Source: Nitrospirota bacterium
GTDB lineage: Bacteria > Nitrospirota > Nitrospiria > SBBL01 > JAADHI01
Assembly: GCA_029261195.1 (NCBI GenBank)
Contig: JAJDBU010000059.1
Span: forward strand, 62,001 to 126,000
DNA length: 64,000 bases
Reading direction: 5' to 3'
Both the position numbers and the translations under genes were made by a program. The stretch's first letter is position 1. Every line of letters begins with the position of its first letter. Of the stretch, positions 3,683 through 39,619 are shown one piece after another. The notes under the pieces are model-generated. The model searched no databases and had not been told where the DNA came from. It was given only the letters and a program-made list of their open reading frames with translations.

Positions 3683-4504
3683 TCATGCATCCATAGCACA
3701 ACGAAATCCGAGAAACGCCAATCGCTCCTCAGGGTAGACATTTTGACGGTAGGTCAAGCGGGAAAAGATTTCCATCGCATAATGACCCGATTCACCAAAG
3801 GCATCCCCTCTGGCGACTTTATATTGCTCTCCGAAATCTTCACTTTCGTAATCACCTCCGGGGTAGGGCCTGTACCAGCTTTCCGTCCATTCCATCACAT
3901 TCCCGGTCATATCGAAGAGGCCATAGTGACTTCGGTCGGTCGCAAAGCGTCCGATCATCATAATGCCCCCATGTGAACCGGCACTGACGTTCCCCTTTGT
4001 TCCATCAAAGGTATTGCCCCAGGCATAGAGGTTTCCAGTGGGTCCTCGTGCAGACTTTTCCCACTCTGCCTCCGTTGGCAAGCGCTTACCTAGCGACTGG
4101 CAATAATCCCTCGCATCGTACCAGTTGACTTCAACAACCGGGAGAAGACCCAGGCCCTTTGGATAAGCGCTGTCTCCCCAGTAAGGAGGCGGATTACGTT
4201 TACTCCCGGCAATGAAACGGGCGTAATCCCGGTTGGCGACTTCAAATCGATCAATAAAAAATGCGGGGATGGAAAGTCGCCGCTCAGGATGTTCATCCAG
4301 ATAAAAGGGTTTTTTATTTCCGAGTTCCCCTTGCAGTCCTTTTTCATCGACCGTATTGCTCCCCATGATGAAGGGGCCTTTTGGAATCAGAATCATTTCA
4401 GGAGGCTCAGCTTCCTGAAATCGGGAGAGGAAAAAAAAGAGAACGCTCAGGGGAAACACGATCAGCGACGCAATAAGAAGCGACTTTTTTAAGGAGATTG
4501 CCAT
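3683..4504 (-). CDS. FGE-sulfatase-fold (SUMF1-like) membrane-anchored protein
   Basis: 273 residues. One N-terminal membrane anchor or signal segment (residues 8-28) is followed by a formylglycine-generating-enzyme fold: MILIPKGPFIMGS near residue 37, EVNWYDARDYCQSLGKRLPTEAEWE, YAWGN, GLFDMTGNVMEWTESWY, and a C-terminal GFRCAMDA. True aerobic FGE enzymes bind copper through two cysteines just before the GFR motif. Here that segment (RLTYRQNVYP) has none, so sulfatase activation is unlikely. Such catalytically altered relatives often act as binding or accessory domains. It follows the 12-heme cytochrome by about 60 bases and may help in its export or assembly; that is inference. Confidence 0.85.
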   Translation of the reverse strand: MAISLKKSLLIASLIVFPLSVLFFFLSRFQEAEPPEMILIPKGPFIMGSNTVDEKGLQGELGNKKPFYLDEHPERRLSIPAFFIDRFEVANRDYARFIAGSKRNPPPYWGDSAYPKGLGLLPVVEVNWYDARDYCQSLGKRLPTEAEWEKSARGPTGNLYAWGNTFDGTKGNVSAGSHGGIMMIGRFATDRSHYGLFDMTGNVMEWTESWYRPYPGGDYESEDFGEQYKVARGDAFGESGHYAMEIFSRLTYRQNVYPEERLAFLGFRCAMDA

Positions 4505-4568
4505 CGGCAGTCCCCGATTAAGCGCGTTGGCTGACTGCCAAGCGTAAATTCTTAGGTGGAAACGGCAT

Positions 4569-7500
4569 CTACTTCTGTCCGTCTAAGACCGTGTGGGCAT
4601 CGGTATTGTGACTCATGTCAATGCCGTGACAGCGGAGATTGCAGCCAGGCCCTTTATGGTCCGATGGTCCGGAAGGAACTCCCACAGTGCCATAATCATT
4701 AATAGGGGAACCCGGTCCGTTGACCATGTGTCCTGCACCCCACATTGGTTTGGTCGCTTCACGATTTCCCCTGATATTCGGCTGAAAATTAATCAGATGG
4801 GAACTCATTTCGTGGCCGGGGTTATCTGCCTTGAATTGAGCGCTGTTCATGCCGACATAGATTGTATTACCTGCTTCAACATTACTGTGAACATTGTTAT
4901 GGCACTCGTGACAGCGTGCATTAGTCCGTCCGATCAGATGAAGCATATGCAAGTTGCCTCCCTGTTGCCCGGTACCGTCTACATTTGCAGTGTTGCCACG
5001 GTAAAAATTGGTTAAACGGGTCTTGGGCGCAATCGCCCCGGGGCTCTCCCACCAGGGCGTAATGAACGCAGATTCATTATGACAATTGAAACAAAGCGCA
5101 AAATTCTGGGGATTGTATTGTCCCGGTACGGTGCCGGGTGGCTTAGTCTCTGCAGTACCGACCGTCGTGTCATAGTTCGCCCGCAAGATACGTTTATAGT
5201 TTGATCCGTGCGGGCCCTGGGCTGTTTTTGGATCGTTGAGTGAGGATGTCCGCACGCCAGTCGGCTCCCTTGGAATACTGGGTGAGCGATCACTCAATCG
5301 CCTGTAGGCTGGACCGCGTGTATCATCGAAGGTAATGGGTCCCGGATAATCCGGGAAGTTAATTCCAAGTGGAAAACCGCCTCCGTTGAAACCTAAAAAG
5401 TTTGGAATTGAGCCGACAAAGGTGCCGAAGAGATCGGTGTTATGGCAGTCCGGACAATGGATTGTCGCCTGGCGTGAGAGTCCGCCGGAGCCATCATGTC
5501 CGCTCACACGACCACTTATTCCATCAAAAGTGGCATCGTGCCCGAAGCCTCCCATCAACTGTCCCTGCTGTGTGGGAATATCCACATTAAGATTGAAGTT
5601 GTTTAATACGCCTGACTGGTTTCTGCCGGGCTGGAAAACCGGGTGAAAAGAGGTGTTCGTCAGTGGCGGGTTTGAGTCTTGAACCAAGGGCCCGCCGAAT
5701 TGACCGGGTGGATTCTCAACGATAGTCATAAAGTTTTGTGTGTAAAACGGCGCGGAGTCAGGGTCAAACTCTTTTCGTTTATTGCTGCCGTGGGCATTAA
5801 CGCCCATCGCGGCATCGATTGGGCTATTGCCCCTCGCCTGGACGAGCAATCCCGTACCAAGAGCGGAAAAAAGGGCCTCACGAACATGATTGTTGAAGGT
5901 ATTGCCATGACATCGCAAACAGACTTCAAATATATAGGGTTCCCGTCTTTCATCCACCCTTTTAAGGGTCGCCGCGACGATACCACTTTTGATCGTGATG
6001 CCCGGCATGCCCTTAAAGCGGTTCCGGCGGGTAACACGGTGCATGTTGTGACAATCGACACATTCCACATGGGAAGTATCGGGAGTCAGGGCCTCGGGTA
6101 CAATCCCGTCGCTGGGTTTATTATTAGCCGGTTCCTGAAATGCAGGTCCGCCAAAAAAAGAGGGAACACGGTTATCGCTTCCAAGCTGCACACCCTCTTT
6201 TGGAAGGTCAACAAAAACAGGTTGGTGGCCCAGGCCTAAAGTCAGGTCCATTGCACTCCCGGTCGGGGAAGTCCCGTGGTTACCGTTTCCTTCCCGATCT
6301 CTAAAAAACTGTGATCGGATATCCGGGGCCTTAGTCGGTGCCTGGAGAATAGAGCTAGGCTGTGGTTGATGGCATTGGAAGCAGGTTGTTTCAATGGAGA
6401 CATTTCCGACCGCATCTACCCCTTCGCGCAAGATTCGAATTGCCCCTTGGCGAGTATGCGGGTCATGGCAAACGAGGCAGGCCCGTTCAGCGACCATTGG
6501 AGATTCATTGTTATGGAGGTTTGTTGCGCCGGGTTTCAGTCGGGAGTCATCAAAACCCGGGCTTCCTCCCTTATCTCCCCTATTGCCGAAATGTGAATTG
6601 AGTTCATCAGGATTATAAGGCCAGCCCGGCTTGTCGTGACAGAAGAGGCAGAGGATGGCCCCTCCCTCGCTCGGTGGTCCTCCCCGGCTTGCCGCGCCCA
6701 CCTGTTTTTCAGATTGTGTACGGGCATGGGTTTGCGATTGCAGCCGATTGGCCCTTAGGAATTTTGGAAAATCGACCTGATGGGGATTGTGGCATGAGGT
6801 ACATTGAACCGAGTCAAATACACTGTTATTACTGCCGGTTGCCCGCCGCAGAGGAGAAAGCGGAGTCGGAGTACTCTGTGAAAAAGGACGATGAAGTGGT
6901 GGGCCGGGGTTCACAAATTCGATGTCTTTTGAAAGCAATTCACTATCGAAGACCATTGAAATAGGGTGGTCATTACGAAGATCCCGCCCCAGCGCCCGTG
7001 TGTTCTGAGAGGTCGCGCCTTCTCCAACGGGGATGCTGCCGAAGGGACCGGCCGGTGACTGACCAGTTGGATATTCCATTGGTTCTTCACCGTTTCTCCC
7101 GCCACTGCCCGCTTTATTTAGAACCGAACCTAATGCAATCGTCCCATCATGGCAGGAAAGGCAGAGCCTTGAGTAACCGGTAGGTCGGCCCGGGTCATTC
7201 GGCGTCGCCTCAAAGGACTTGCTCCAGACCTGATCATACATTTGATATTGATCTTTCGGCAGCCTTCGATTCCAGATTGGAGCCTGGATCGCAATCCCTT
7301 CGCGGTTTGCTCCGTGCGGGGTATGGCAGAAGACACAGACCTCTGTTGTCCCGCCACGTGAAAGGTCCGCCTTGACGTTCCGTTGTTTATCTGGGCTGAA
7401 AAGCTCCTCAAATACCTGCTGATCTTCAGGCAGCAGCGGAAGAGCGGAAAGGTTGTGCTTCGTCGCGCTGACATTTTCATCGAAGGGGCTGGAGGTGGGT

Positions 7501-7646
7501 TGTGCCCAGGAAGAGCGATCGAAAAAATAGGCCCCTGTGCCGCCTATCACAAGCATAAATACGACAAGGCTGAGGCGGGAAAACGACATTATTCCAAGCT
7601 GGAACTTTTTCCCGATCTGTACTTTTTTGCCTTCCTGTTTTTTCAC
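4569..7646 (-). CDS. Dodecaheme c-type cytochrome, doubled-CXXCH family
   Basis: 1025 residues with an N-terminal signal or anchor segment (about residues 18-48). There are eleven CxxCH haem-binding motifs (CVFCH, CLSCH, CTSCH, CLFCH, CLVCH, CFQCH, CVDCH, CLRCH, CPDCH, CFNCH, CHECH) plus one CxxxCH motif (CNLRCH) near the C-terminus, giving twelve predicted haems. The first motifs sit in the block FCHTPHG, APIWNRRLP, LSCHDG, DLRNDHP, which is shared with the two smaller cytochromes at 11461 and 13813. The start is GTG with an AAAGGA ribosome site 10 bases upstream, and a strong promoter lies at 7683-7711. The large size and neighbouring outer-membrane barrel suggest a long periplasmic or outer-surface electron wire. 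Localisation is not proven by sequence. Confidence 0.93.
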   Translation of the reverse strand: MKKQEGKKVQIGKKFQLGIMSFSRLSLVVFMLVIGGTGAYFFDRSSWAQPTSSPFDENVSATKHNLSALPLLPEDQQVFEELFSPDKQRNVKADLSRGGTTEVCVFCHTPHGANREGIAIQAPIWNRRLPKDQYQMYDQVWSKSFEATPNDPGRPTGYSRLCLSCHDGTIALGSVLNKAGSGGRNGEEPMEYPTGQSPAGPFGSIPVGEGATSQNTRALGRDLRNDHPISMVFDSELLSKDIEFVNPGPPLHRPFSQSTPTPLSPLRRATGSNNSVFDSVQCTSCHNPHQVDFPKFLRANRLQSQTHARTQSEKQVGAASRGGPPSEGGAILCLFCHDKPGWPYNPDELNSHFGNRGDKGGSPGFDDSRLKPGATNLHNNESPMVAERACLVCHDPHTRQGAIRILREGVDAVGNVSIETTCFQCHQPQPSSILQAPTKAPDIRSQFFRDREGNGNHGTSPTGSAMDLTLGLGHQPVFVDLPKEGVQLGSDNRVPSFFGGPAFQEPANNKPSDGIVPEALTPDTSHVECVDCHNMHRVTRRNRFKGMPGITIKSGIVAATLKRVDERREPYIFEVCLRCHGNTFNNHVREALFSALGTGLLVQARGNSPIDAAMGVNAHGSNKRKEFDPDSAPFYTQNFMTIVENPPGQFGGPLVQDSNPPLTNTSFHPVFQPGRNQSGVLNNFNLNVDIPTQQGQLMGGFGHDATFDGISGRVSGHDGSGGLSRQATIHCPDCHNTDLFGTFVGSIPNFLGFNGGGFPLGINFPDYPGPITFDDTRGPAYRRLSDRSPSIPREPTGVRTSSLNDPKTAQGPHGSNYKRILRANYDTTVGTAETKPPGTVPGQYNPQNFALCFNCHNESAFITPWWESPGAIAPKTRLTNFYRGNTANVDGTGQQGGNLHMLHLIGRTNARCHECHNNVHSNVEAGNTIYVGMNSAQFKADNPGHEMSSHLINFQPNIRGNREATKPMWGAGHMVNGPGSPINDYGTVGVPSGPSDHKGPGCNLRCHGIDMSHNTDAHTVLDGQK

Positions 7647-7682
7647 AATCTATCAGTCCTTTAGTGACCTTACAGCCCAGTG

Positions 7683-7711
7683 AATATAAATATCAGGCTA
7701 TCTATTGTCAA
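7683..7711 (-). promoter_or_regulatory. Sigma70-type promoter for the 12-heme cytochrome
   Basis: Read on the minus strand, TTGACA (7706-7711) is separated by exactly 17 bases from TATATT (7683-7688). Transcription would start near 7676, giving a 30-base leader before the GTG start at 7646. The element lies just past the stop of the upstream NHL gene, so the large cytochrome can be expressed independently of the genes above it. Confidence 0.75.
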
Positions 7712-7714
7712 CAA

Positions 7715-8836
7715 CTAACCCGAGGGTTTTTGACCTTCCGCCAAGTTTTTTTTCAGGTTTTTTTCTTTGTCCAATAGCTGAAAAACCTGTATGCGTTTAT
7801 TGTAGGCATCCGCCACAAAGATTCGACCGTTTTCATTGATTGCGATACCTGCGGGCAGCCAGAAATTTCCGGCTTTGACACCCGATTTCCCAAAGTTGAG
7901 CAAGAGTTCACCTGCTTCATTAAAGACCTGAATTGTATCAAAGAGGGTATCAACAACATAGACATTAAGCTTGCTGTCAACTGCAACGCCTTTCGGACGG
8001 GAAAATTCTCCGAGATTGCTTCCAATTTCCCCAAACTGAGAAAGTGGATTCCCTTCGGGGTCGAAAACCTGGATGCGAAAATTAAGGGAATCGGAGACAT
8101 AAAGCTTCCCCGCAGCATCAACCGTTGCGTAGGTCGGAAAATTGAAGGTTCCCGCTGCCACTCCCCGTTTTCCGATGGTCCCCTCTTTTATTCCAAGCAG
8201 GGAATAGATGACGACCTGATGCCCCATCGTATCCACTGCATAGAGTTTTTTTCGCACCGGATCAAGTGCAATTCCGGAGACCCGCTTCATTTCATTGTCA
8301 TTCCCGATGGTTCGAAGCCACTTCCCGTCCTTGTCGAAAACAAAGATTCTGTTCAGGTCGGTGTCCGACACATAGAGCTGTTGCGCATCGTCGATGGCCA
8401 CTCCGATGGGGCCTTGCAATCGACCCGCTCGACCAATTTTAAAAAACTGACGATATTTTTTCTGCTTCGTGTCAAAATGGTGGACAACCTGTAAACCGGT
8501 ATCGGCAACATAAACTCCGCCATCGCGGTCAACAGCGACTCCGGCGGGCCGGATAACATAGGGCGTATCCCCTTCTCCGAAAACAAAGCGGACAACCTTT
8601 TGAAACCAAGTAGGTTTGATGCCGATATCAGCAGGTTTTATCCAGGACTGCACATAGGAAATACGAGGCACATCCGGCGGCTTTGGCCAGAAGATTGAAG
8701 GACTTTCTTCTTTGACAGGAGTTCCGGCGCAAGCCGATAAGACGGCCAGAAGGGAAAACACGATAAGCGGAAGGCCGTAGAAGGAAGGCTGACGCTTGTT
8801 CCTTTTTTCTCTGTTTTTCAGCGTCCGAGCCCTCAT
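7715..8836 (-). CDS. NHL-repeat beta-propeller lipoprotein
   Basis: From the ATG at 8836 the product is about 373 residues: a basic N-terminus, a hydrophobic segment and the lipobox LLAVLSAC, so probably a lipoprotein. After SIFWPKPPDVPRISYVQ it carries successive NHL repeats of the type GVAVDRDGGVYVADTG, GVAIDDAQQLYVSDTD, GVAVDSKLNVYVVDTL and GIAINENGRIFVADAYNKRIQVF, forming a six-bladed propeller. The frame is open further upstream to a GTG at 8878 that overlaps the stop of the barrel gene (TAGTG), but this would put 14 extra residues before the signal peptide; 8836 is preferred. A paralogue is at 12558. NHL lipoproteins recur beside multiheme cytochromes and probably act as protein-binding scaffolds. 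Confidence 0.88.
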   Translation of the reverse strand: MRARTLKNREKRNKRQPSFYGLPLIVFSLLAVLSACAGTPVKEESPSIFWPKPPDVPRISYVQSWIKPADIGIKPTWFQKVVRFVFGEGDTPYVIRPAGVAVDRDGGVYVADTGLQVVHHFDTKQKKYRQFFKIGRAGRLQGPIGVAIDDAQQLYVSDTDLNRIFVFDKDGKWLRTIGNDNEMKRVSGIALDPVRKKLYAVDTMGHQVVIYSLLGIKEGTIGKRGVAAGTFNFPTYATVDAAGKLYVSDSLNFRIQVFDPEGNPLSQFGEIGSNLGEFSRPKGVAVDSKLNVYVVDTLFDTIQVFNEAGELLLNFGKSGVKAGNFWLPAGIAINENGRIFVADAYNKRIQVFQLLDKEKNLKKNLAEGQKPSG

Positions 8837-8877
8837 GACTATGCGATAGCGCTCACAAATACAAGTAACTCCAAACA

Positions 8878-10776
8878 CTAAAAAGAACGACTCATCCTGG
8901 CAAAGATGGATTGGTTTTTAAAATTAACGTCTGATTGTTTGCTTTTCGACAAATCTTCGCTCCAGCGTCCATCCAGACTCCAGGAAAACTTTCCGATCCG
9001 GTAAGCCATTGTGCCAGTCCCTTCAATTGTATTTCTATCAAGCCCGACCAGGCCATCTGTCCGCTCCTGGTTGGCACGCAGCCCGAAGGTCATACGAGTG
9101 CTTCCAAGATAGGTGGTATAGCGAAATTCTTCATAGAAGTGCTGGGAATCGAGGAAGACATTACTCGGATAGTCCTGGTAGGTCCATCCCCCGGAGAAAA
9201 CCCCTCCCTGCATAAAATAATAGGTTCCGCGAATATCGGCGACACGGATTTCGTTGGCCGGCCCGAAGCCCTCTATTTTTGTCCAACTTAATGTCGATTG
9301 CAGAAGAAGACTGTCATCTTCCCGCAAAATCCCCCGGAAATAACTGGTATCGGCATTGAGCTGAATGCGGTGTGAACGCTGGTCATCGAGTTCCTGATTT
9401 GCAGGTGTCGGTGCGAGCTTGCCGGCTTCGGGGACACCGAGACTCCGGTTAATGTCATTAAAGGTATAACCCAGAACAAGGTGGACAAGCCGGATGCGGG
9501 TGTTTTCGACATTGAGCGCAATCGTATTCATCAGGTCCGTTGAGTCGCCCTGTCCATCGGTGTCCGAAGAGCCGTAAGCGACGGAGTAGCTGGTGGTATA
9601 TCGCAGGATCTCGATTGCACGTGTGTAGTTCATAAAACCTCGATAGCGCTGAAAGCCGGTTTTTACGCTCGCACCGGCTCCCTTGGTATCGGTTTCACCG
9701 TAAGAGGCCCCGACACCGGATGAAAAACCGAAGAATGGCCGGTAATTAAGACTGTAGTCAATAAAGGGGGAGGAAGTTGTGATATTGCTGATGTCAAAGC
9801 GAAAATAGCGAGCGTTGACGACCATATCAAGTTGTTCTGTCGGGCGGTAGGAAGCGCCCCAGTTGACGTTAGACCGCTTCAAATCGACTCCACCCCCGGA
9901 GCCTCCGGGGGTTTCTGAATAATCGATGCGTGCGTGAGTATCCCATGTTGTCGCCGGTGTATAAAAAAGAGAGGCACCGAAGCCTCTTTCCTGTGAAAAT
10001 GATGTCCCGCTACTGTTACCGCCTTTGTCCGCGATCCGCGAAAAGGTGCTGACGATCAGAGCCGGAGCAAGACGGGTCTCCGTTGTCAGGTTCAAGGCGT
10101 TCCCCGTTACCTTGCTGACTGATCCGTCATTCAACTGAGCAACCGAGGCTTCATTGAACTGGTATCTCCCAATCAAAGTGGTTTCGCCCATGCGACCGTT
10201 TGACTCCAGATTCAAAAACCGGTTGATCGAATTTGGAAGTCGATTTGCGTCATCCACGGCCTCAAGTTCCGACTGATTATATGAAAGGGCGATGCGAGGA
10301 AGCCTTGGTGTAGAAAGAGACCAGTTGGCGCCAATTGTCGTAAGACGGTCCCTGTTCTTTTCGGCGTTTTCGTCAAATGTGTTGCTCCGGTTCACACGCT
10401 GGTAATAGAGACTGAGCGGTGAGATATAGGGCAGTAGGTTTGCGGCAACTGAATAATCGTAAAACTTAAAATCCTGCTCACCTCGAGTGTTCGTTTTAGT
10501 CTCCTGGCTCAGAAAGGTGCCGCTTAAAAGAAGGGTCCCAATTCGGGGATTAAAGATCTCTCCAAAATTTCGGAGGTTGTAACGCTGCTGGAAGGTTTTT
10601 GTTGTATTTATAATAGAATTGCCGCTTGTACTGCTTTGTTCTGTCCTTGTTGCCCCGTAACTCAGATCCAGTGAACCGCCCAAATTGATAAAACGGGCCT
10701 CCGCCCATGAGGGCGTAAGAAGAAAAAGGGAGAGAGCCCCAATCAAAAAATATTTCTTCTCCCTCAAGTGCAACAA
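8878..10776 (-). CDS. Outer-membrane beta-barrel protein of a cytochrome gene cluster
   Basis: 632 residues. The signal peptide ends near TPSWAEA, and the mature chain is dominated by alternating amphipathic strands rich in Tyr, Gly, Ser and Thr (for example LTTIGANWSLS, GASYRPTEQLDMVVNARYFRF, TFGLRANQERTDG). It finishes with a terminal Phe (FARMSRSF), the usual outer-membrane barrel signature recognised by the BAM machinery. There are no haem motifs. Length and context (periplasmic multiheme cytochromes plus a SurA-like chaperone immediately upstream) match the barrel partner of porin-cytochrome conduits such as the MtrB/PioB and Geobacter Omb types. Direct homology to those families cannot be claimed from inspection. 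It could also be an unrelated large porin. Confidence 0.85.
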   Translation of the reverse strand: MLHLREKKYFLIGALSLFLLTPSWAEARFINLGGSLDLSYGATRTEQSSTSGNSIINTTKTFQQRYNLRNFGEIFNPRIGTLLLSGTFLSQETKTNTRGEQDFKFYDYSVAANLLPYISPLSLYYQRVNRSNTFDENAEKNRDRLTTIGANWSLSTPRLPRIALSYNQSELEAVDDANRLPNSINRFLNLESNGRMGETTLIGRYQFNEASVAQLNDGSVSKVTGNALNLTTETRLAPALIVSTFSRIADKGGNSSGTSFSQERGFGASLFYTPATTWDTHARIDYSETPGGSGGGVDLKRSNVNWGASYRPTEQLDMVVNARYFRFDISNITTSSPFIDYSLNYRPFFGFSSGVGASYGETDTKGAGASVKTGFQRYRGFMNYTRAIEILRYTTSYSVAYGSSDTDGQGDSTDLMNTIALNVENTRIRLVHLVLGYTFNDINRSLGVPEAGKLAPTPANQELDDQRSHRIQLNADTSYFRGILREDDSLLLQSTLSWTKIEGFGPANEIRVADIRGTYYFMQGGVFSGGWTYQDYPSNVFLDSQHFYEEFRYTTYLGSTRMTFGLRANQERTDGLVGLDRNTIEGTGTMAYRIGKFSWSLDGRWSEDLSKSKQSDVNFKNQSIFARMSRSF

Positions 10777-10840
10777 CTCCCCTCCTTACAAAAACCGAAA
10801 CCCAAGCCCAAGCCTTTAGAGCATTACAGTTGTAGCGGAC

Positions 10841-11464
10841 CTATTCTCCCGAAACGGTCCTATCGTGCCCTGATATGCGCTCATTAAGATTGATCTGAAT
10901 ATCCGCACTCTCACTGATTGCCTTGAGTCTCATTATTTTCTCCGCTTGAGTCAAAGTCGATAAATGAGACCAGGTTTTATTGATGAGAATCGAACGTTTG
11001 ACTCCGGAACGGATATCTTTCCGTTGAAGCGCCTCTTTTTGAACAGCAAGCTCATAAGAGTGATCAGACTGAAACCTGCCCCGGATAAGGGCGACACCGG
11101 TATCAATTTCATTTTCCGTAACAGGCAGGCCCTCTTTTAAGCCTTCCTGATAAAGCAGCTCTTCCTCAATCAGCCGTTTTAATATCTCCTCACGTAAACT
11201 TTGCATTCTCGAAGCCGGAAGTTCCCGATGACCGATTCGACTGAGATAGGCTTGGAGCGCTCCATTGACGGCGAGACTGGAAATCGGCGTCTGATTGACC
11301 GCAGCGACAGTCGCAGCAAGAACCGGAGCCACAGGAAAGCCGACGATAGCTGTGGCGATTGCGATAAATATGCTCAGAACAGAGCTGAGCGATGCGGACA
11401 TGAATCGCTTTACCCGCGGACACGTTTTTGGTGTTAGAGCATATTTTTTGTCGGCCGGCTTCAT
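10841..11464 (-). CDS. SurA-N-domain periplasmic chaperone-like protein
   Basis: 207 residues. After a long basic N-terminus, a hydrophobic export segment ends at VLAATVAAVNQTPIS, which is the SurA/PpiD-type entry strand. The SurA N-terminal helices follow: LREEILKRLIEEELLYQEGLKEGLPVTENEID and a long helical tail. No parvulin peptidyl-prolyl isomerase domain is present, so this is only the chaperone part. The gene overlaps the stop of the 4-heme cytochrome by 4 bases (ATGA) and precedes the barrel gene by 64 bases. A role in escorting the barrel or the cytochromes across the periplasm is inferred from the position. Confidence 0.82.
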   Translation of the reverse strand: MKPADKKYALTPKTCPRVKRFMSASLSSVLSIFIAIATAIVGFPVAPVLAATVAAVNQTPISSLAVNGALQAYLSRIGHRELPASRMQSLREEILKRLIEEELLYQEGLKEGLPVTENEIDTGVALIRGRFQSDHSYELAVQKEALQRKDIRSGVKRSILINKTWSHLSTLTQAEKIMRLKAISESADIQINLNERISGHDRTVSGE

Positions 11465-12561
11465 TTTTTGTGACAGCTCAAACAGATAAGACTGCGTTCA
11501 TTTCGGTCTTGTGAATTTGCACCGGGACGAGAGGCCAGTCTAAGAAAAAGGGAATTGTTGATTGTCTGGGCATCGACCGGCGCTGAAAGTGCGGGTTGAC
11601 CGCCGGGTCGGCTCGCCTCGTGCGGATTATGGCATGAGGCACATTCAATATAGGGGGCATCAGGCCGACTCGGATCGGAGGCATAGGCCCGAATACGGTC
11701 TCGTTTATCAAGGGGGAGATTTGCACCGCTCGGATGGCGATCGATCCACATCACCCCGCCACTTCCCGGGACTCGCCCTCCTTTTGTCGTGATATTGGTT
11801 AATATCTCTCTAAACTGAGGATCAACACGGGGAATCTCCATACTGATGGGGTGGTCATCCCGCAAATCAAGACCCAGGTTCGGAAAGGGTTCTGAGCCGA
11901 AGGAGGCATTCGGGCCGGCACCGAACTGGTCAAAATAAATGAAACCGCCCGCTTCACTATCCCGCAGTCCTTCTTTAAAGCTGTTTGATGCATCGACGGC
12001 CGGGCCGGAAAAACTCATTCCGATACTTCCACCCTGGCCGTCCATTGTTTTGTTGTTCTGAAAAAAGCCTCCCGATCCGGAGCTGTTAATCAAAGCGTCA
12101 AAGGCAACAGCGCCATCGTGGCAGGACAGACAGGCGAGCGACACACCTTTTGGACGTCCGGGGACACCCATGAGGTCCTGAGCGTCAAAGTGAGGGCTGT
12201 TGTAAGGGGTGAAGGCCATTGAATTGGGGAGACGCCGATTCCAAAGGGGGGCAATTCCCTGGACACCGCCAACATTACTGCGACCGCCATGCGGTGTATG
12301 GCAGAAGATACAGACCTCTTCATTGAGGCGAACATCTCCTTCGGTTCCGCGCACTTCAGGATTCCGGGCGCCACGAAGAGAGGTCAAATCACCCGGTTTA
12401 AAGTCATTACCTTCCCCGGCCAGAATATCAGGGTTGACAGCGAGGTTGTGCTTTGTGTGCCGAATATCTTCAGACCCACTCACAAATCCGACCGAAATAT
12501 GGATTCCAGCCAGAATCAGCAGCGAAAAAAACACGAGAAATCGGGACAATCCAGCCTTCAT
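11461..12561 (-). CDS. Tetraheme c-type cytochrome, doubled-CXXCH family
   Basis: 366 residues with a signal peptide (FFSLLILAGIHISVGFVSG). Four CxxCH motifs are seen: CIFCH, CLSCH, CASCH and a C-terminal CLSCHKK. Shared blocks with the 12-heme and 5-heme proteins are TKHNLAV at the mature N-terminus, FCHTPHG, APLWNRRLP, LACLSCHDG, DLRDDHPISM and SCHNPHE. Start and stop overlap the neighbouring genes by 4 bases on both sides, so it is translationally coupled to the NHL lipoprotein upstream and the SurA-N protein downstream. Predicted periplasmic electron carrier. Confidence 0.92.
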   Translation of the reverse strand: MKAGLSRFLVFFSLLILAGIHISVGFVSGSEDIRHTKHNLAVNPDILAGEGNDFKPGDLTSLRGARNPEVRGTEGDVRLNEEVCIFCHTPHGGRSNVGGVQGIAPLWNRRLPNSMAFTPYNSPHFDAQDLMGVPGRPKGVSLACLSCHDGAVAFDALINSSGSGGFFQNNKTMDGQGGSIGMSFSGPAVDASNSFKEGLRDSEAGGFIYFDQFGAGPNASFGSEPFPNLGLDLRDDHPISMEIPRVDPQFREILTNITTKGGRVPGSGGVMWIDRHPSGANLPLDKRDRIRAYASDPSRPDAPYIECASCHNPHEASRPGGQPALSAPVDAQTINNSLFLRLASRPGANSQDRNERSLICLSCHKK

Positions 12562-13802
12562 TGGGTCGAGGATTCTCCTTCTTCAAGGCTGGAGCTTCCT
12601 GCTTCAGGGTTAGAGGCTCCTGCAGGGAGGGTTTCAGTTTCCTGGGCGGGCGGTTCAGATGGCGTCACCGGCGTTTTTCCTCCAAAAAACTGAAATTTTG
12701 CAGGTGCTTCATCTGGAACAAGCGGAGTGACTGCTGAACCCGGGGCTTCTGATTCTGAAGCTTGGAGATACTGAAAGACATTGATGCGGTGATTGTATTG
12801 GTCTGCCACATAAATCCGGTCTTGATTGTCAATCGACAAACCCGCCGGAAGCCAGAATTGACCTTTGCGTCCCCCGAACTCCCCAAAGAAAAGAAGAAGT
12901 CGGCCTGAGGGCTCAAAGATCTGAACATTATTGAATCGGGCATCAACAACATAGATGTGTCCCTCCGAATCAACACCGACGCCCTTTGGAAGAGAAAATT
13001 GTCCAAAACCGGTTCCGACACTACCGAACTTTGAAATAAACTTCCCATCGGCATCAAAAATCTGAACTCTGAAATTCATATCGGTGACATAAATGTGTCC
13101 CGCCCCGTCGATAAAAAGATTGGCCGGAAAGTTAAAAGCGCCATCCCCGCTGCCACGTTCGCCAAATTCAAAAAGGAATTTTCCTGAAAAATCGAAAACG
13201 AAGGCCTTGTGTTTCCGGGTATCAACGATATAGACCCGCTTCAATTCGTTGTTGAGTGCGATGCCCACAGGCCGCTCCAGCAGGTTCATATCGCCCATGT
13301 CGAAAAGGTGTTTTCCCTGGGCATCGTAGACCAGGGCTTTTCGGAGGACGGTATCCGTGACGTAAACACGGCCCTCGTTATCGACTGCGACGCCAAGCGG
13401 CCCGGCAAGGGCGCCCGGCCCGTCAACACCGATCATAGAAAACTGTTTTCCGGCTTCGTCAAATACCAGAACTTTGCGCCATCCGGAGTCTGCCACATAA
13501 ATTCGGCCGTTTGGGGCAGCAAAAACGGCATAGGGTTTGACCAGTCTCGCGACTGAAGACTCATCGAAGAGGAAGGCCTTAAAGCGATCCCAAAAACCCT
13601 TTTCTTCGACGTCATCGGAAGAAGAAATTGTTTTAAGAAATTTTATCCGTGCTTGTTCCGGTGGCTGAGGCCAGAATAGCTCTGGCTCTGAACGGATGGC
13701 CCTCTTGCCGCAAGCCGTCAATATCCCCCCAAAAGCACAAAAAACAAGGAACAGGCAAAGGATGCGGAACGTCTGCTTTGAGTTCGTGTAGCGCTTCACC
13801 AA
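12558..13802 (-). CDS. NHL-repeat beta-propeller lipoprotein (second copy)
   Basis: 414 residues with the lipobox GGILTAC after a hydrophobic stretch, then SEPELFWPQPPEQARIKFL, matching the paralogue at 7715 (SIFWPKPPDVPRISYVQ). At least five NHL repeats follow, for example GVAVDNEGRVYVTDT, GIALNNELKRVYIVDT, GVGVDSEGHIYVVDARFNNVQIFEPSG and GLSIDNQDRIYVADQYNHRINVF. A low-complexity C-terminal tail of about 70 residues rich in Pro, Glu and Ser is absent from the other copy. It starts 10 bases after the 5-heme cytochrome gene. Confidence 0.88.
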   Translation of the reverse strand: MVKRYTNSKQTFRILCLFLVFCAFGGILTACGKRAIRSEPELFWPQPPEQARIKFLKTISSSDDVEEKGFWDRFKAFLFDESSVARLVKPYAVFAAPNGRIYVADSGWRKVLVFDEAGKQFSMIGVDGPGALAGPLGVAVDNEGRVYVTDTVLRKALVYDAQGKHLFDMGDMNLLERPVGIALNNELKRVYIVDTRKHKAFVFDFSGKFLFEFGERGSGDGAFNFPANLFIDGAGHIYVTDMNFRVQIFDADGKFISKFGSVGTGFGQFSLPKGVGVDSEGHIYVVDARFNNVQIFEPSGRLLLFFGEFGGRKGQFWLPAGLSIDNQDRIYVADQYNHRINVFQYLQASESEAPGSAVTPLVPDEAPAKFQFFGGKTPVTPSEPPAQETETLPAGASNPEAGSSSLEEGESSTQ

Positions 13803-13812
13803 GAGTAGGCTC

Positions 13813-14619
13813 CTATTTTTGGTGACAGGTCAGGCAAAGGGCGCTTCCCCTGTTAGAGGTTCGGAGGAAAGGATCGCGACCTTCCAGATTTTTTTCGTCC
13901 GGACTATGGATGTCATGGCATGAGGCGCACTGAACCTTATCGCCTTCAAAAGTCTGAATTCCGTTCGCAAACATCCGGCCACCGTCTGTTTTCAAAATCG
14001 TCGGCTGGTTGAATTGCGGATCAAGATCAATCGTCGGATAGGCCATTGAAAAGGCATGATCATCCCGTAAGTCTTTCGTAAAATAACGGATTGTCGCATC
14101 ATGGGCTCCGGATATGCCACCGTAAGCGCCTTCGTTTCGATTATGGCACTTGGAGCAGGCGTCACTGCCCGGTTCTCCTTCAAGCGTCATACGATGTTTC
14201 ACGCCACTCTCGCTGATGCTATGGAAACGAGGCGGCTTCAAAACGGAGTCTACGGCCACGGAACCGTCATGGCAGGAAAGGCAGGCCAGCGAAATGCCGT
14301 CGGGCGCTTTACGTGGACTCGAATCAAAGTTGGGACTCGAATACATTTGGTAGGCCGTTTCTTTGGGGAGTTCTCGATTCCATAGGGGCGCATAGCTGCT
14401 ACTGTTGTGGGGGGTGTGGCAATAGACGCAGGTTTCACGATAGTCGCTGAAGGTTCCCCCTTGCATCGGACCCGATTCTGCCTGGTATCCGCGCCAGTTC
14501 AGGGCGGAAAGGTCATGCCGTGAGCGAACAATGGACCCTCCTTTTGCAGAGGCGGATATCAATAAGAGGAGCGCCATGGCGACAGAACCGACGGCGATAT
14601 GAATCTGCACCCACTTCAA
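13813..14619 (-). CDS. Pentaheme c-type cytochrome, doubled-CXXCH family
   Basis: 268 residues with an N-terminal signal peptide (MALLLLISASAKG). Five CxxCH motifs: CVYCH, CLSCH, CSKCH, CASCH and CLTCH close to the C-terminus. The order RHDLSALNWRG, YCHTPHN, APLWNRELPKE, LACLSCHDG, DLRDDHAFSMAYP repeats the module found in the 4-heme and 12-heme proteins, so the three are paralogues of different haem number. It is the first gene of the minus-strand operon; a promoter-like element lies at 14708-14734. Confidence 0.92.
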   Translation of the reverse strand: MKWVQIHIAVGSVAMALLLLISASAKGGSIVRSRHDLSALNWRGYQAESGPMQGGTFSDYRETCVYCHTPHNSSSYAPLWNRELPKETAYQMYSSPNFDSSPRKAPDGISLACLSCHDGSVAVDSVLKPPRFHSISESGVKHRMTLEGEPGSDACSKCHNRNEGAYGGISGAHDATIRYFTKDLRDDHAFSMAYPTIDLDPQFNQPTILKTDGGRMFANGIQTFEGDKVQCASCHDIHSPDEKNLEGRDPFLRTSNRGSALCLTCHQK

Positions 14620-14707
14620 CAGGAAACACGGCCTCCGCTACGGACTCGCTCGAAAGTAAAAAAACGAGAAAAAAAACAGATATAAAAACCCAAAATTATC
14701 AGGGTTA

Positions 14708-14734
14708 ACTATAATTTTTTCTCGCTTTTGTCAA
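14708..14734 (-). promoter_or_regulatory. Promoter-like element for the minus-strand cytochrome operon
   Basis: On the minus strand TTGACA (14729-14734) is followed after 15 bases by TATAGT (14708-14713). The hexamers are near consensus, but the spacer is two bases short, so the exact -10 register is uncertain. It faces away from the triheme gene at 14854. Confidence 0.5.
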
Positions 14735-14792
14735 GGAAAAAAGAGGCCAAAGCCGAATCAAATTGAACCGAAGCCTGTTTGCTAAAATTTTA

Positions 14793-14820
14793 TTGACAAA
14801 GATTAAAAAGGTATGATAGT
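14793..14820 (+). promoter_or_regulatory. Promoter-like element for the triheme cytochrome pair
   Basis: TTGACA (14793-14798), a 16-base spacer and GATAGT (14815-14820), 33 bases ahead of the ATG at 14854. The -35 is perfect and the -10 weak. Together with 14708-14734 it makes the AT-rich intergenic segment a divergent control region. Confidence 0.45.
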
Positions 14821-14853
14821 TCTCCTTCAACTTTTCATATTTGCCAGGGAGGA

Positions 14854-15228
14854 ATGATGAAAAAAGTACGGATCGGCATCGTGTTGGGTATGGCCCTGCT
14901 CTTTTCGTTCTTGTTCGTCGGAGATCATGTCTCAGGTTATTTTGGTGACATGATTCTAAACAGCAAGGCAGAAAAACGAGGGATGCCGCCTGTCGTCTTC
15001 CCTCATTGGTACCACAGGGCGGAATTTAAATGTAAGGTCTGCCATCCGGCCATCTTTGAGATGCGCTCGGGTGCAAATGACATTGATATGAAGAAGATTA
15101 TCATTGACGGGCAATTCTGTGGGAAATGCCATAACGGCACCATCTCATGGAAACCGATTGACTGTGCACGGTGTCACTCAGGCGTTCCCGGAATGAAGAC
15201 GGGTGTACTCGAAGGGTTCCCAAAATAG
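14854..15228 (+). CDS. Triheme c7-like periplasmic cytochrome
   Basis: 124 residues with a signal peptide or anchor (LGMALLFSFLFVG). The mature region has PPVVFPHWYHRAEFKCKVCH followed by CGKCH and CARCH: three haem motifs in the spacing of the cytochrome c7/c3 superfamily, with the conserved VFPH-xxHR histidines supplying distal ligands. A GGGAGGAATG ribosome site gives the start; the second Met (14857) is equally possible. The next gene encodes a longer triheme protein with the same haem domain. Likely a small periplasmic electron shuttle linked to the divergent multiheme operon. Confidence 0.92.
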   Translation: MMKKVRIGIVLGMALLFSFLFVGDHVSGYFGDMILNSKAEKRGMPPVVFPHWYHRAEFKCKVCHPAIFEMRSGANDIDMKKIIIDGQFCGKCHNGTISWKPIDCARCHSGVPGMKTGVLEGFPK

Positions 15229-15238
15229 GAGGGGTAAT

Positions 15239-15943
15239 ATGACCTGGGCAACAAAAGGACGAAAGAAATCTTTTTATTCTGTGCTCGTGCTGGTAGTCTT
15301 TTCCCTCTCTTCTATTTATGCCTGTGTACGACAGGCAAAGAGTGAACCGGTTGCAGCAGCCGAGACAGCGACAGTTGAAAGTAAAGGGGCGCCCGTAGTG
15401 GTCGCTCAAGCAACGGCACCCGTTCAAGTGAATGAAGAGGACTTGAAGGGCTCGGGAGACGCTCCGAAGGTACGGTCTCTGGTTGCGCCGCCCCCAGTGG
15501 AAGGCTTACCTCAGTTTGAAGATCCGACTAAGCTGCCAACACCCGGACCTCCGTACAACAGGGAGAACTCAAACCCGCATGTTGCGATGGAGAGTATTCC
15601 GAAGGAAGCCACCGGTGTTGAAGACTGGGTCAAGGCCTTCAAGGAAGAGAAGATCCATCCGCATGAATCACTTGATCTGTCAAAACCTCCGGTTCCACCA
15701 TTTAACTTTGATGTCGAAATTCCCGCAGTCGGCTCGATGCCGAATGTCGTTTTCCCACATTTTCCGCATACCTTCTGGCTGGATTGTACGAACTGCCATC
15801 CCGGAATCTTTATGATGAAAAAGGGGGGGAATCCAATCTCAATGGTCAAGATTGTCAACGGTGAGTTTTGCGGGCGCTGTCACGGGCGAGTGGCCTTCCC
15901 CATCGCAAACTGCACCCGTTGCCATGTGAAACCGAAGGAATAA
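15239..15943 (+). CDS. Triheme c7-like cytochrome with long proline-rich linker
   Basis: The ATG at 15239 follows AGGAGGGG and is preferred over an upstream in-frame start at 15203 that overlaps the previous gene. The product is 234 residues: an N-terminal hydrophobic segment ending SSIYAC (possible lipobox), then about 100 residues rich in Pro, Glu, Ala and Val that look disordered. The C-terminal domain MPNVVFPHFPHTFWLDCTNCH carries the CGRCH and CTRCH motifs. The haem domain is paralogous to the 124-residue protein just upstream. The linker could let a membrane-tethered haem domain reach across the periplasm. A terminator follows at 15972. Confidence 0.9.
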   Translation: MTWATKGRKKSFYSVLVLVVFSLSSIYACVRQAKSEPVAAAETATVESKGAPVVVAQATAPVQVNEEDLKGSGDAPKVRSLVAPPPVEGLPQFEDPTKLPTPGPPYNRENSNPHVAMESIPKEATGVEDWVKAFKEEKIHPHESLDLSKPPVPPFNFDVEIPAVGSMPNVVFPHFPHTFWLDCTNCHPGIFMMKKGGNPISMVKIVNGEFCGRCHGRVAFPIANCTRCHVKPKE

Positions 15944-15971
15944 GGACTTAGAACCTTATTGCGCAAGCTGT

Positions 15972-16014
15972 AAAAAAACCGGTCACTGCCACTTAGCGGG
16001 TGATCGGTTTTTTT
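15972..16014 (+). terminator. Rho-independent terminator after the triheme genes
   Basis: A-rich left arm AAAAAACCGGTCAC pairs with GTGATCGGTTTTTT (one G-U pair) around a 15-base loop, ending in a run of seven T. The A-run on the other side would make it work in both directions. It lies 28 bases past the stop at 15943. Confidence 0.85.
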
Positions 16015-16048
16015 ATGTGTAGTAGGTTGATTTCCCCGTATAGATCCA

Positions 16049-16891
16049 ATGAAAAATGCTTTCCTAATCGTGCTCATTTTACTTTCTTTCCACGCTTCTG
16101 TGCTCAGCGCACAAGAGAATCTGGCGCAAGCAATTACAGTTAAGGCGGAGCGCATTCAAGAACAACTCATTGGCCCGGTCAAAACAGTATTAGTCGAGTT
16201 TTCAAAAATAAAAAAGGTTGGCGGAAAATGGATACCGGAAGATTTGAGGACCCCTTGGCTCTTAACAACCTATAATCGCAAAGGTTATCGGATGCAGGAA
16301 GATCAACTCTACTTAGATAGATTGCTCGACTTTAAATCTATTTTCACCTACGACTCACTGGGACAGCTCTCCAAAGGGACTGAGTACGACCACAAAGAAA
16401 AGGTCACGTTTCAGTGGACTTACAAACACCATGTGTCGGAAAACAGAATTGAAGAAAATCGGAGTTTTCCAAACGGAACAAGCTTTTCGACAATCAATTA
16501 TCTCTACGACCCAATGGGAAACTTGATTGAAGAAAAACATAAGTTGGAGCAGACCCAAAACTATTTTAGATGGGTTTACCAATATGATGCCGGGGGAAGA
16601 AAAACCGAAGAATCCTATTATCTTTCACGCCCTGAGGCTCAGGAAGGCAAGATGAAGTCATTGCTTAATTTCAGGGTCGTCTTTTTGTATGATAGCCAAG
16701 ACAATCTTATCAAAGAGACACGATTTAATGCTGCTGGTCAAGCAATCTCGAATAAGCATTTTCAGTACACCTACGACAAAACCGGAAACTGGATTTCTCA
16801 AACCGCAGAAGAAGCAGTGGTAACATCCGGCGAAGCAGTGCTTGAGCCAACTGAAATCACCTACCGAACAATCACCTACTACCAACCATGA
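16049..16891 (+). CDS. Secreted YD-repeat (RHS-like) protein
   Basis: 280 residues with a signal peptide (MKNAFLIVLILLSFHASVLSA). The chain carries short YD repeats: YDSLGQLSKGTEYD, YLYDPMGNLIEEKHKL, YQYDAGGRKTEES, FLYDSQDNLIKETRFNAAGQ and YTYDKTGNWISQ. These resemble the strand-turn units of RHS/YD proteins but without a toxin or core-shell domain. Such small secreted copies have no known function. The next gene starts inside its stop codon (ATGA overlap), so the two are coupled. Confidence 0.8.
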   Translation: MKNAFLIVLILLSFHASVLSAQENLAQAITVKAERIQEQLIGPVKTVLVEFSKIKKVGGKWIPEDLRTPWLLTTYNRKGYRMQEDQLYLDRLLDFKSIFTYDSLGQLSKGTEYDHKEKVTFQWTYKHHVSENRIEENRSFPNGTSFSTINYLYDPMGNLIEEKHKLEQTQNYFRWVYQYDAGGRKTEESYYLSRPEAQEGKMKSLLNFRVVFLYDSQDNLIKETRFNAAGQAISNKHFQYTYDKTGNWISQTAEEAVVTSGEAVLEPTEITYRTITYYQP

Positions 16892-18018
16892 CTCTACAGA
16901 ATCTTAAACATCAACTGCATAACACTGCCCTCACAGGCGTCATTTTCTTCGCACTTTTTCTTTTTATGCCTATCTCAGCATCAGCGGCACCAAGCTCTCC
17001 AGCAAAAAAACCAGGATTGTGGGAACATTATTCACTCTTCTCCATAGTGAAAGCTCTGGCCTTCGACGGAGATGTGCTGTGGATCGGTACAACCAATGGC
17101 CTTTTAAAGTATGACCTTCGGAAAGAGACGCAAAAGGTCTACACAACAAAGGACGGGCTTCTCTCCAATATGATCCATACCATCACCGTCAGTCCAAAAG
17201 GAGAACCCTGGATTGGCACCTATGGCGGAGGACTCAGTCACTTTGACGGGAAACGATGGACAGCTTACACACCCTACGGTGTCGGTTCTTCACTGACTTA
17301 TTCCAATAACTGGACGAACTATAAACGCGGGCGTGGACTGGGTGATCTTTGGGTTTACGGCATCCATTTTGATCCAAAGGGTACCATGTGGGTTGCGACT
17401 TGGAAGGGCGTCAGTCGCTTTGACGGAAGCGGGTTTCTTACGTTTACAACTGACGACGGCCTGATTGACAAGTGGGTCTACACCTTAAGCCAGGACAAAA
17501 AAGGGGTCTTCTGGTTCGGTACCGAAGGCGGCGTGACCCGATATGACGGCAAAACTTGGAAAAGCTACACGAACAAAGACGGCGTCGGGGCAAAAATAAA
17601 CAGCGTCAAGCCCCCCGAAACTCAGTCCCTCCCTTACACCCCGAGGCACCATGAAAGGGGAGGAGGCAAACCCTTGGACTACAACCCGAACTACATATCT
17701 GCATCAGTGGTGGATGACAAAAACACGCTCTGGATCGGTACCTTAGGCGGTGGACTTTCTCGTTTCGACGGACAATCCTGGAAAAGTTTTACAACAAAAG
17801 AAGGTTTATCGGGTAATTTAATCCACGCAATCACCATTGACGCACAAGGCACCCTCTGGATCGGCACCGATGGAGGCGTGAGCCGATTTGATGGCAAACA
17901 ATTTCTTAACCTGACAGATAAAGACGGAATCGGTGCAGTCTTTTCTATTGCCATCGACCGCCGGGGGAATAAATGGTTCGGCACCTTTGGCGGCGTCAGC
18001 CAATATCGCGGAAAGTAA
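16888..18018 (+). CDS. Secreted two-component-regulator propeller protein
   Basis: 376 residues with an export signal (FFALFLFMPISASA). It is built of Reg_prop-type repeats: LWIGTTNGLLKYD, PWIGTYGGGLSHFDGKRWTAY, MWVATWKGVSRFDGSGFLTF, FWFGTEGGVTRYDGKTWKSY, LWIGTLGGGLSRFDGQSWKSF, LWIGTDGGVSRFDGKQFL and KWFGTFGGVSQYRGK. This is the sensor propeller usually fused to hybrid histidine kinases, here free-standing with no kinase. It may sense or bind polymers or act as a structural partner of the co-translated YD-repeat protein. Confidence 0.85.
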   Translation: MTLQNLKHQLHNTALTGVIFFALFLFMPISASAAPSSPAKKPGLWEHYSLFSIVKALAFDGDVLWIGTTNGLLKYDLRKETQKVYTTKDGLLSNMIHTITVSPKGEPWIGTYGGGLSHFDGKRWTAYTPYGVGSSLTYSNNWTNYKRGRGLGDLWVYGIHFDPKGTMWVATWKGVSRFDGSGFLTFTTDDGLIDKWVYTLSQDKKGVFWFGTEGGVTRYDGKTWKSYTNKDGVGAKINSVKPPETQSLPYTPRHHERGGGKPLDYNPNYISASVVDDKNTLWIGTLGGGLSRFDGQSWKSFTTKEGLSGNLIHAITIDAQGTLWIGTDGGVSRFDGKQFLNLTDKDGIGAVFSIAIDRRGNKWFGTFGGVSQYRGK

Positions 18019-18272: not shown

Positions 18273-18315
18273 TTGACAGGTCTATCTTTTGGGAATATAA
18301 TCCCAAAAGATAGAC
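18273..18315 (+). promoter_or_regulatory. Perfect consensus promoter embedded in a 36-base palindrome
   Basis: TTGACA (18273-18278), exactly 17 bases, then TATAAT (18296-18301): a complete sigma70 consensus. Overlaid is a perfect inverted repeat: arm GTCTATCTTTTGGGA (18280-18294), six-base centre, arm TCCCAAAAGATAGAC (18301-18315). The dyad covers the spacer, -10 and start region, as expected for an operator bound by a dimeric repressor. It is located about 50 bases before the truncated glycosyltransferase gene at 18365. Confidence 0.8.
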
Positions 18316-18364
18316 GAATTGATACGGATTATTGGCAAACACCATCAGCGGAACGGAGAAACTT

Positions 18365-38977: not shown

Positions 38978-39619
38978 CTATCCATCCTTTTTCTTCAGTA
39001 GAAAATCGGGGACTTTCGGCATTTCTGCCCAGGGACCGATTTTATTGTAGAGTGCAGCGAGGTCCTGGGCGTAGCCTAAGCCGTCTTCGAGGGCGTCAAT
39101 CGCCTTGCCTGCTGTGGTGGTACCGTCTTGCAGCTTTTCAACAAATTTTTTAATGCGGGAGAGTGCGCCTGTTTTTGTTTTGGCTTCTTTCGGCGTTGAA
39201 ACCGCGTCAATTTCAGAAACGGCTTTTTCTACTTTTCCTATCTCTTTTTCCAGTTTGGATTTTGATTTTTGATCATCGATTTCATCCAGCAGATCTTCTT
39301 TGAGGGTTTCAAGTAAACCCGTGAATTCCAGGATCGTTTCATTTTTAATGTCAATGTTGATGTCAATCTTGGTTTCTTGTTTCACATTGTTGTAGACATT
39401 GATGATGTGATCCCCTTCGCGTTTCGTTGAATCAGGGGCTTGACGGTCTTTCTGTGGATCAATCACCCCTTCCAACATTTGTCGAATGGAAATCTCTTCG
39501 TTGCAGATGGTGCAATAGATTATTGAGCGCCCGTTATTCACCGTGTCTTCCACCTCTTGAAACTTGAACAGTTTGGGTTCCACCTTTTTAGAGCACACTT
39601 GACCGGAACAGGGGATCAA
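38978..39619 (-). CDS. Zinc-ribbon and coiled-coil protein, likely C-terminal part of the Roco protein
   Basis: 213 residues starting at a TTG that overlaps the Roco stop (TTGA). The N-terminal part carries C4 (IPCSGQVC) and a later CTIC, probably a zinc ribbon; the middle is coiled coil (ETLKEDLLDEIDDQKSKSKLEKEIGKVEKAV). The C-terminus ends in AALYNKIGPWAEMPKVPDFLLKKKDG. Bacterial Roco proteins often have a cysteine ribbon and coiled coil directly after COR, joined by a segment like LIPC. Reading upstream in this frame gives RFSELIPCSG, which fits such a junction, so one ancestral gene may have been split by a frameshift or turned into two coupled genes. Confidence 0.65.
   Translation of the reverse strand: MIPCSGQVCSKKVEPKLFKFQEVEDTVNNGRSIIYCTICNEEISIRQMLEGVIDPQKDRQAPDSTKREGDHIINVYNNVKQETKIDINIDIKNETILEFTGLLETLKEDLLDEIDDQKSKSKLEKEIGKVEKAVSEIDAVSTPKEAKTKTGALSRIKKFVEKLQDGTTTAGKAIDALEDGLGYAQDLAALYNKIGPWAEMPKVPDFLLKKKDG

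Follow-up and report, generated by a model that had tools for sequence, protein, structure and literature searches.

A Uet-like locus with OmcE homologues as a probable extracellular electron-transfer module in a Nitrospirota bacterium

How electrons enter Mn(II)-oxidising Nitrospirota is an open question, on which a cluster of multihaem cytochrome genes in a Nitrospirota bacterium bears. The cluster lies in a stretch of 64,000 nucleotides (positions 62,001 to 126,000 of contig JAJDBU010000059.1, assembly GCA_029261195.1, a genome of 3.04 Mb in 77 contigs), referred to here as the window. An initial annotation of this stretch had proposed a trans-envelope electron conduit with a gene set different from those of known conduits. 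Does the cluster belong to a described type, and which way might electrons pass through it? We read it as a Uet-like extracellular electron-transfer module, with a probability of about 0.6. Gene content, conservation, homology to Uet and to OmcE, the modelled size of the barrel and the loss of an isomerase domain from the chaperone are established.

The annotated genes were all recovered as intact open reading frames (ORFs) at the places given, and their domain assignments were borne out by Pfam and NCBIfam, with haem numbers obtained by counting motifs. These data confirm the 12-, 5- and 4-haem cytochromes (the twelfth haem motif being CX3CH) and the two trihaem c7-like cytochromes; the outer-membrane barrel, the SurA-N-only chaperone and the two NHL lipoproteins are likewise upheld, with a barrel model and lipoboxes as further evidence. 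The annotated limits of 4569–15943 were too narrow, and the locus extends over about 3683–18018. On the minus strand, the order from 5' to 3' is pentahaem cytochrome, NHL protein, tetrahaem cytochrome, SurA-N chaperone, barrel, NHL protein, 12-haem cytochrome and a gene with an FGE domain; divergently, on the plus strand, two trihaem c7 genes are followed by an RHS-repeat gene and a Reg_prop propeller gene. Of the several 4-base overlaps reported, two (12558–12561 and 11461–11464) lie within the annotated limits and a third (16888–16891) just outside. When each of the three larger cytochromes was shuffled 2,000 times, the mean number of CXXCH motifs was at most 0.02 and the maximum was 2. Since shuffling gives far fewer motifs than observed, and since the haem motifs of the locus cytochromes are kept in nearly all relatives, chance is excluded as a source of the counts.

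Uet (undecahaem electron transfer) denotes the uetABCDEFGHIJ genes of the Tenderiales, as in Candidatus Tenderia electrophaga, which occur also in Gallionella and the Leptothrix group (PMC10734462, PMC5371394, PMC12575090). A scan with the 12-haem alignment also recovered proteobacterial loci (for example L098, L104 and L107, Gammaproteobacteria included) with the order 4-haem, peptidyl-prolyl isomerase (PPIase), ~600 amino acids (aa), 3-haem, 3-haem, ~540 aa, 3-haem, NHL, NHL, 11-haem, which is the UetA–J order given in the same papers. Hidden Markov model matches were obtained for the counterparts of UetA, B, D, E, G, I and J, and the barrel family was linked by hhalign to the proteobacterial ~600-aa proteins at the UetC position (probability 97.7%, E-value 2.5e-12). 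The parts listed for Uet in PMC10734462 are a tetrahaem cytochrome, a PPIase, a barrel, trihaem cytochromes, two NHL proteins and an undecahaem cytochrome. The earlier proposal thus stands as to an electron-transfer locus that is not MtrCAB and has a conserved order, while its gene set is not new, the same ensemble having been published as Uet.

Profile comparison shows the tetra- and pentahaem proteins to be homologous to OmcE over their full length. The family profile of the pentahaem cytochrome (13813–14619, minus strand; five CXXCH) matched the OmcE filament of Geobacter sulfurreducens (PDB 7tfs; PMC11936953) over its full length with an E-value of 1e-27, and that of the tetrahaem cytochrome (11461–12561, minus strand; four CXXCH; UetA-type), again over the full length, with 4.3e-20; the corresponding values for 9yuq, a 16-chain multihaem cytochrome entry of the PDB, were 2e-21 and 3e-17. 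The window pentahaem protein as a single sequence matched 7tfs with 4.8e-25, a proteobacterial UetA-type protein matched OmcE with 7e-24, and MtrA of the same genome, serving as control, gave no OmcE match. Each of the four OmcE haems falls within the alignment, as does the CxxCHxK at the C-terminus, and C155 is the additional haem motif of the pentahaem protein. Four non-motif histidines common to 7tfs and 9yuq (KHDLS, CHTPH, DHP and CHxxH) are kept in the tetra-, penta- and 12-haem proteins; these distal histidines stand at positions 38, 91, 237 and 314 of the tetrahaem protein and 35, 71, 188 and 238 of the pentahaem protein. In OmcE, one haem per subunit is bound by a histidine from the neighbouring subunit (PMC12307469), and because all four distal histidines are conserved, the inter-subunit histidine is kept whichever of the four it is.

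The 12-haem cytochrome (4569–7646, minus strand) is of the UetJ type, with 11 CXXCH motifs and one CX3CH, a signal peptide and no lipobox. The CX3CH is invariant in 27 relatives, and the twelfth haem is therefore counted as invariant. Residues ~60–300 form an OmcE-like module by profile match to the PDB (7tfs, 3.9e-16; 9yuq, 2.7e-17), and it is this N-terminal module that keeps the same four non-motif histidines. The OmcE homology of the 4- and 5-haem proteins and of this module is, as judged from the alignments, what is new here; in a literature search of incomplete coverage, no paper was found that connects OmcE with either Uet or Manganitrophus. In a tree built from 66 large cytochromes, a fully supported branch separates the Pseudomonadota from the Nitrospirota, Myxococcota, Gemmatimonadota and Nitrospinota. 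A promoter-like TTGACA-17-TATATT (11/12 matches) at 7711–7683 on the minus strand, in the gap directly upstream of the 12-haem gene, may allow its expression separately from the remainder of the operon. In one chromosome-level Candidatus Manganitrophus assembly (G017, locus L037), the 12-haem gene is split in two frames and the ORFs of the tetrahaem protein and the chaperone are short, with sequencing error as the likely cause.

Other multihaem loci were sought by pattern and Pfam scans. A second conserved mini-cluster, away from the main locus, was seen in the same genome (L162, contig C43, 9791–12878) and in genome G014 (L165, 6799–9913), containing a full-length PPIase, a glmM-like gene and an OmcE-like tetrahaem gene. 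In other Nitrospirota (L175, L168, L169, L170 and L178), tandem OmcE-like penta- and tetrahaem genes adjoin 10-haem cytochromes, 7-haem proteins or a 24-haem ORF (L168, 5722–9342).

The barrel (8878–10776, minus strand; UetC-type) was modelled with AlphaFold2 as 30 antiparallel strands, hollow and without a plug domain (predicted local distance difference test score (pLDDT) 84, predicted template-modelling score 0.60). The initial annotation had set an ordinary porin against its own proposal; the model is large, hollow and unlike an ordinary small porin. By simple geometry, the backbone diameter is ~53–58 Å for 30 strands, compared to 46–50 Å for 26. A hole so large would hardly be tolerated if empty, and the barrel is presumably filled, either by a cytochrome plug or by passing cargo. 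The top PDB match of the model in Foldseek was MtrB (6r2q_B, E = 4e-9). The barrel sequence matched only lectins in the PDB (E 0.06–0.2, noise), and a PHROGs search gave no match.

The barrel is present in 26 of the 58 genomes searched, including 8/8 of the window's own family (this genome included), 5/6 of family f5 and, at 29–35% identity, other Nitrospiria; it was not found in family f6, the predominant family of the sample. Wherever contigs reach, the gene order is the same in all 13 genomes of the order that have the barrel (families f1 and f5); the other Nitrospiria show nearly the same order, diverged and mostly without the trihaem genes. Gene order in relatives was one of the two points on which the initial annotation had staked its proposal, and it is conserved; its further claim that propellers and chaperone are integral is borne out, both being constant members of the locus. 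Sequence identity to the other Nitrospiria is 46–54% for the NHL proteins, 52% for the tetrahaem, 40% for the 12-haem protein, 30% for the barrel and 25% for the chaperone. The pentahaem protein (67%) is among the two most conserved of the locus, and the small trihaem protein reaches 69%, with a single relative only. Of 148 Nitrospirota genomes, 16 have a member of the 12-haem family and 27 have one of the pentahaem family, at different E-value limits, and locus relatives are also found in Nitrospirota outside Manganitrophaceae. The gene set and order recur across Nitrospiria, and in part in Pseudomonadota and Myxococcota.

The tetrahaem–chaperone–barrel triad and the pairing of an NHL gene with a large cytochrome gene persist in Nitrospirota that have a 10-haem instead of a 12-haem protein. 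Because these adjacencies persist, we take the tetrahaem protein to be a partner or cargo of the barrel, and the large cytochrome to be organised by the NHL protein. On sufficiently long contigs, no locus was found that has barrel, chaperone and NHL genes but no large cytochrome, the kind of locus that would set nanowire export apart from a conduit. The nearest named relatives by the 12-haem protein are metagenome-assembled genomes (MAGs) of Candidatus Manganitrophaceae, Candidatus Manganitrophus GAC4 and Nitrospirota MAGs from the Oslofjord tunnel. They belong to aerobic Mn- and Fe-oxidising lineages; the Oslofjord MAGs are reported to be without AMO and NXR and to have homologues of Cyc2 and PCC (PMC11442690).

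Haem loading, localisation, contacts between the parts, polymerisation, direction and donor belong to a model that we infer. In it, the 30-strand barrel would be the opening in the outer membrane, folded with the help of the SurA-type chaperone. The OmcE-type tetra- and pentahaem cytochromes would lie outside the cell, where they probably form haem chains joined end to end. They would meet the 12-haem cytochrome, which has an OmcE-like N-terminal module of its own, while the two NHL lipoproteins would anchor or organise the whole at the outer membrane. Through the periplasm, electrons would be carried by the trihaem c7 cytochromes, one of them a putative lipoprotein. Electrons would thus pass from an extracellular donor to the OmcE-type and 12-haem cytochromes, through the barrel to the trihaem proteins and on to the inner membrane. 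Inward flow from a reduced compound outside the cell, for instance Mn(II) or Fe(II), appears more likely than outward flow, because the lineage is lithoautotrophic and because Uet is linked to uptake, and not on account of the sequence. Uet of Candidatus Tenderia has been linked to electron uptake from a cathode (PMC5371394, PMC12575090). Outward flow, which we hold to be unlikely, would accord with the part of OmcE in Fe(III) oxide reduction by Geobacter (PMC12307469) and with the relatives of the locus outside Manganitrophaceae; the aerobic Mn- and Fe-oxidising lineages of the nearest named relatives speak against it.

Several points count against the Uet-like module as drawn. There is no UetF, and the chaperone has lost its isomerase domain; OmcE homology is no proof of polymerisation; and the fold match of the barrel to MtrB is generic, given a template-modelling score of only 0.35 with LptD and TonB receptors as the next matches. 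Structure prediction of the 12-haem protein from 27 sequences gave an unusable model (pLDDT 33). The main electron transfer could also be the work of the true MtrCAB and the Cyc2-like protein that this genome encodes.

One alternative is a plugged conduit without filaments, in which tetra-, penta- and 12-haem monomers would sit in or on the barrel as MtrA and MtrC do in MtrB. The MtrB match of the barrel model favours it, as does the predicted lack of a plug of the barrel's own, and OmcE homologues need not polymerise. However, the barrel has no sequence relation to MtrB (hhalign probability 0.2%, no MtrB_PioB match), and the pentahaem identity stands out from the 25–54% of those other genes that have at least two class-level relatives; such conservation suggests that packing constrains the protein more than it would a soluble carrier. 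We consider a filament-free conduit possible, but rather improbable.

The chaperone and propellers bear on a second alternative, a nanowire assembly machine first and a conduit second, since OmcE homology brings a filament-export role for barrel, chaperone and propeller into competition with a plugged conduit. The barrel would export OmcE-type subunits, the SurA protein chaperone them and the NHL lipoproteins guide the filaments. The tetrahaem gene directly adjoins the chaperone and barrel genes both in Nitrospiria and in proteobacterial Uet, and a barrel of the modelled width would have room for a cytochrome. In Geobacter, the omcS-companion (osc) cluster, reportedly described by Shen et al. 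in 2025, is said to comprise a PPIase chaperone, channel-like proteins and a beta-propeller. As osc has the same functional parts, subunit export is the main rival or complement to the conduit. The NHL lipoproteins here lie at 12558–13802 (PF01436, 3.6e-27; lipobox LTAC) and 7715–8878 (UetI-type; PF01436, 5.6e-34; lipobox LSAC), both on the minus strand. However, the chaperone (10841–11464, minus strand; UetB-type) has lost the isomerase domain: SurA-N is present (PF13624, 1e-11), and Pfam finds no PPIC or Rotamase domain in it or in a same-genus relative. It measures 149–207 aa in all 13 order members versus 280–403 aa in other Nitrospiria, and PPIC was found in 3/3 chaperones tested from other Nitrospiria and in 3/3 proteobacterial ones. 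Because the chaperone of the nearest sister locus (L064) is still 360 aa long, the loss probably occurred on the stem of this order. Moreover, a 10–12-haem protein accompanies the set, which a pure export machine would not need, and we judge assembly as the primary role to be doubtful.

Tentatively, and with the odds against it, Uet-like loci might be joint export-and-wiring machines: barrel and SurA-type chaperone would export OmcE-type subunits that polymerise on the surface, the OmcE-like module of the 12-haem protein would be the base or cap joining the nanowire to the outer membrane, and the nanowire would bring electrons in, in an Mn-oxidising Nitrospirota lineage. Secretion and envelope attachment of cytochrome nanowires were called speculative in a recent review (PMC12307469). 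An ordinary porin standing by accident among cytochrome genes is highly improbable, being contradicted by the recurring set and order. The locus matters in that one conserved neighbourhood unites a 12-haem protein that has an OmcE-like head with cytochromes of the OmcE type, a chaperone and a barrel of very large size. Uet, until now known as a porin-cytochrome pathway, is thereby linked to the nanowire cytochrome family, and a defined set of some ten proteins makes the questions of electron uptake and of nanowire secretion and attachment open to test.

The divergent operon begins with two c7-type genes (nanowire_3heme/Cytochrome_C7). The first (14854–15228, plus strand; UetD/E/G-like; TIGR04257, 4.6e-17) has three CXXCH in 12/12 relatives, and its product is a probable periplasmic carrier. 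The second (15203–15943, plus strand; TIGR04257, 2.2e-16) probably encodes a lipoprotein, with Cys41 (IYAC) in at least 93% of relatives, and its true start is probably the ATG at 15239. A promoter-like TTGACA-16-GATAGT (10/12 matches) precedes them in the gap between the operons (14793–14820, plus strand); such sites are no commoner than chance across the region. Downstream follow a secreted RHS-repeat protein conserved within the order (16049–16891, plus strand; PF05593, 8.8e-10) and the third beta-propeller, of Reg_prop type (16888–18018, plus strand; PF07494, 1.3e-24), the latter also a conserved neighbour in several other Nitrospiria and proteobacterial loci. At the other end, the FGE-sulfatase (SUMF1) domain protein (3683–4504, minus strand; PF03781, 8.9e-50), with an N-terminal hydrophobic segment, is encoded downstream of the 12-haem gene and next to it, as in most relatives. 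Reg_prop and FGE-domain genes often adjoin Uet-like loci; in other Nitrospiria, several tandem copies of the FGE gene are present. Directly downstream of the locus, a perfect sigma-70 consensus (TTGACA-17-TATAAT, 18273–18301, plus strand) faces a small ORF near 18332. Elsewhere in the window (38978–41682, minus strand), a leucine-rich-repeat Roco-type GTPase, as judged by eye, is followed by a coiled-coil protein.

How does the locus compare with known systems? It shares with MtrCAB and MtoAB a barrel and multihaem cytochromes at the outer membrane, but membership was rejected, as none of the three families matches. The barrel had no match to TIGR03509 at E<10 or to PF11854 at E<1 (470 and 514 bits for the genome's own MtrB); the 12-haem protein scored 32.5 bits with TIGR03508 (DmsE-family decahaem; cut-off 192.2, own MtrA 284.5); and TIGR03507 (OmcA/MtrC family) gave only 22 bits, on the pentahaem protein (cut-off 209, own MtrC 552). 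The high scores of the true MtrB, MtrA and MtrC (contig C70, locus L160; 7304–9451, 9469–10473 and 10552–12756, all minus strand, near a bc-type complex), the positive control, indicate that the models work in this genome. The same locus (5175–6362, minus strand) encodes a 395-aa protein with one CXXCH near its N-terminus, resembling by eye a Cyc2-type fused cytochrome-porin, with no Pfam or NCBIfam match.

The Geobacter Pcc consists of an 8-haem periplasmic cytochrome, a porin and a 12-haem outer-membrane cytochrome (PMC4245776). The locus is like it in barrel and 12-haem cytochrome, although the latter has no lipobox here, and OmbB-OmaB-OmcB was rejected for want of an 8-haem partner. PCC_1 of Candidatus Manganitrophaceae, comprising a porin and a 12-haem protein in freshwater and marine members, is described as family-restricted, with an arrangement that differs between freshwater and marine genera. 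By description only, the locus shares with it porin and 12-haem protein and has a compatible distribution, whereas its near-constant order fits the differing PCC_1 arrangements poorly. Of the parts reportedly found in osc, propellers and barrel are present and the isomerase is absent. The OmcE nanowire is matched by the full-length homology of the tetra- and pentahaem proteins, the four distal histidines and the CxxCHxK end, and differs in that the pentahaem protein has a fifth motif and the tetrahaem protein is longer.

Unlike Uet, the window has an extra pentahaem gene and extra FGE and RHS genes, no UetF (TPR) gene among the ORFs of 3683–18018, trihaem genes in a divergent operon, a chaperone without the PPIC domain of UetB, and a 12-haem protein on a branch separate from all Pseudomonadota. 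Its trihaem genes number two, those of Uet three (UetD, E and G). Because of the missing UetF, the added pentahaem gene and the chaperone without PPIC, the locus is called Uet-like and is not filed as Uet. Like Uet, it has a UetJ-type protein with 11 CXXCH and a CX3CH, two NHL proteins (UetH and I) with the NHL–undecahaem adjacency, and a tetrahaem gene adjoining chaperone and barrel as in UetA-UetB-UetC, the tetrahaem proteins of both matching OmcE. The gene set itself is already published, and the locus is a separate branch and a variant of Uet.

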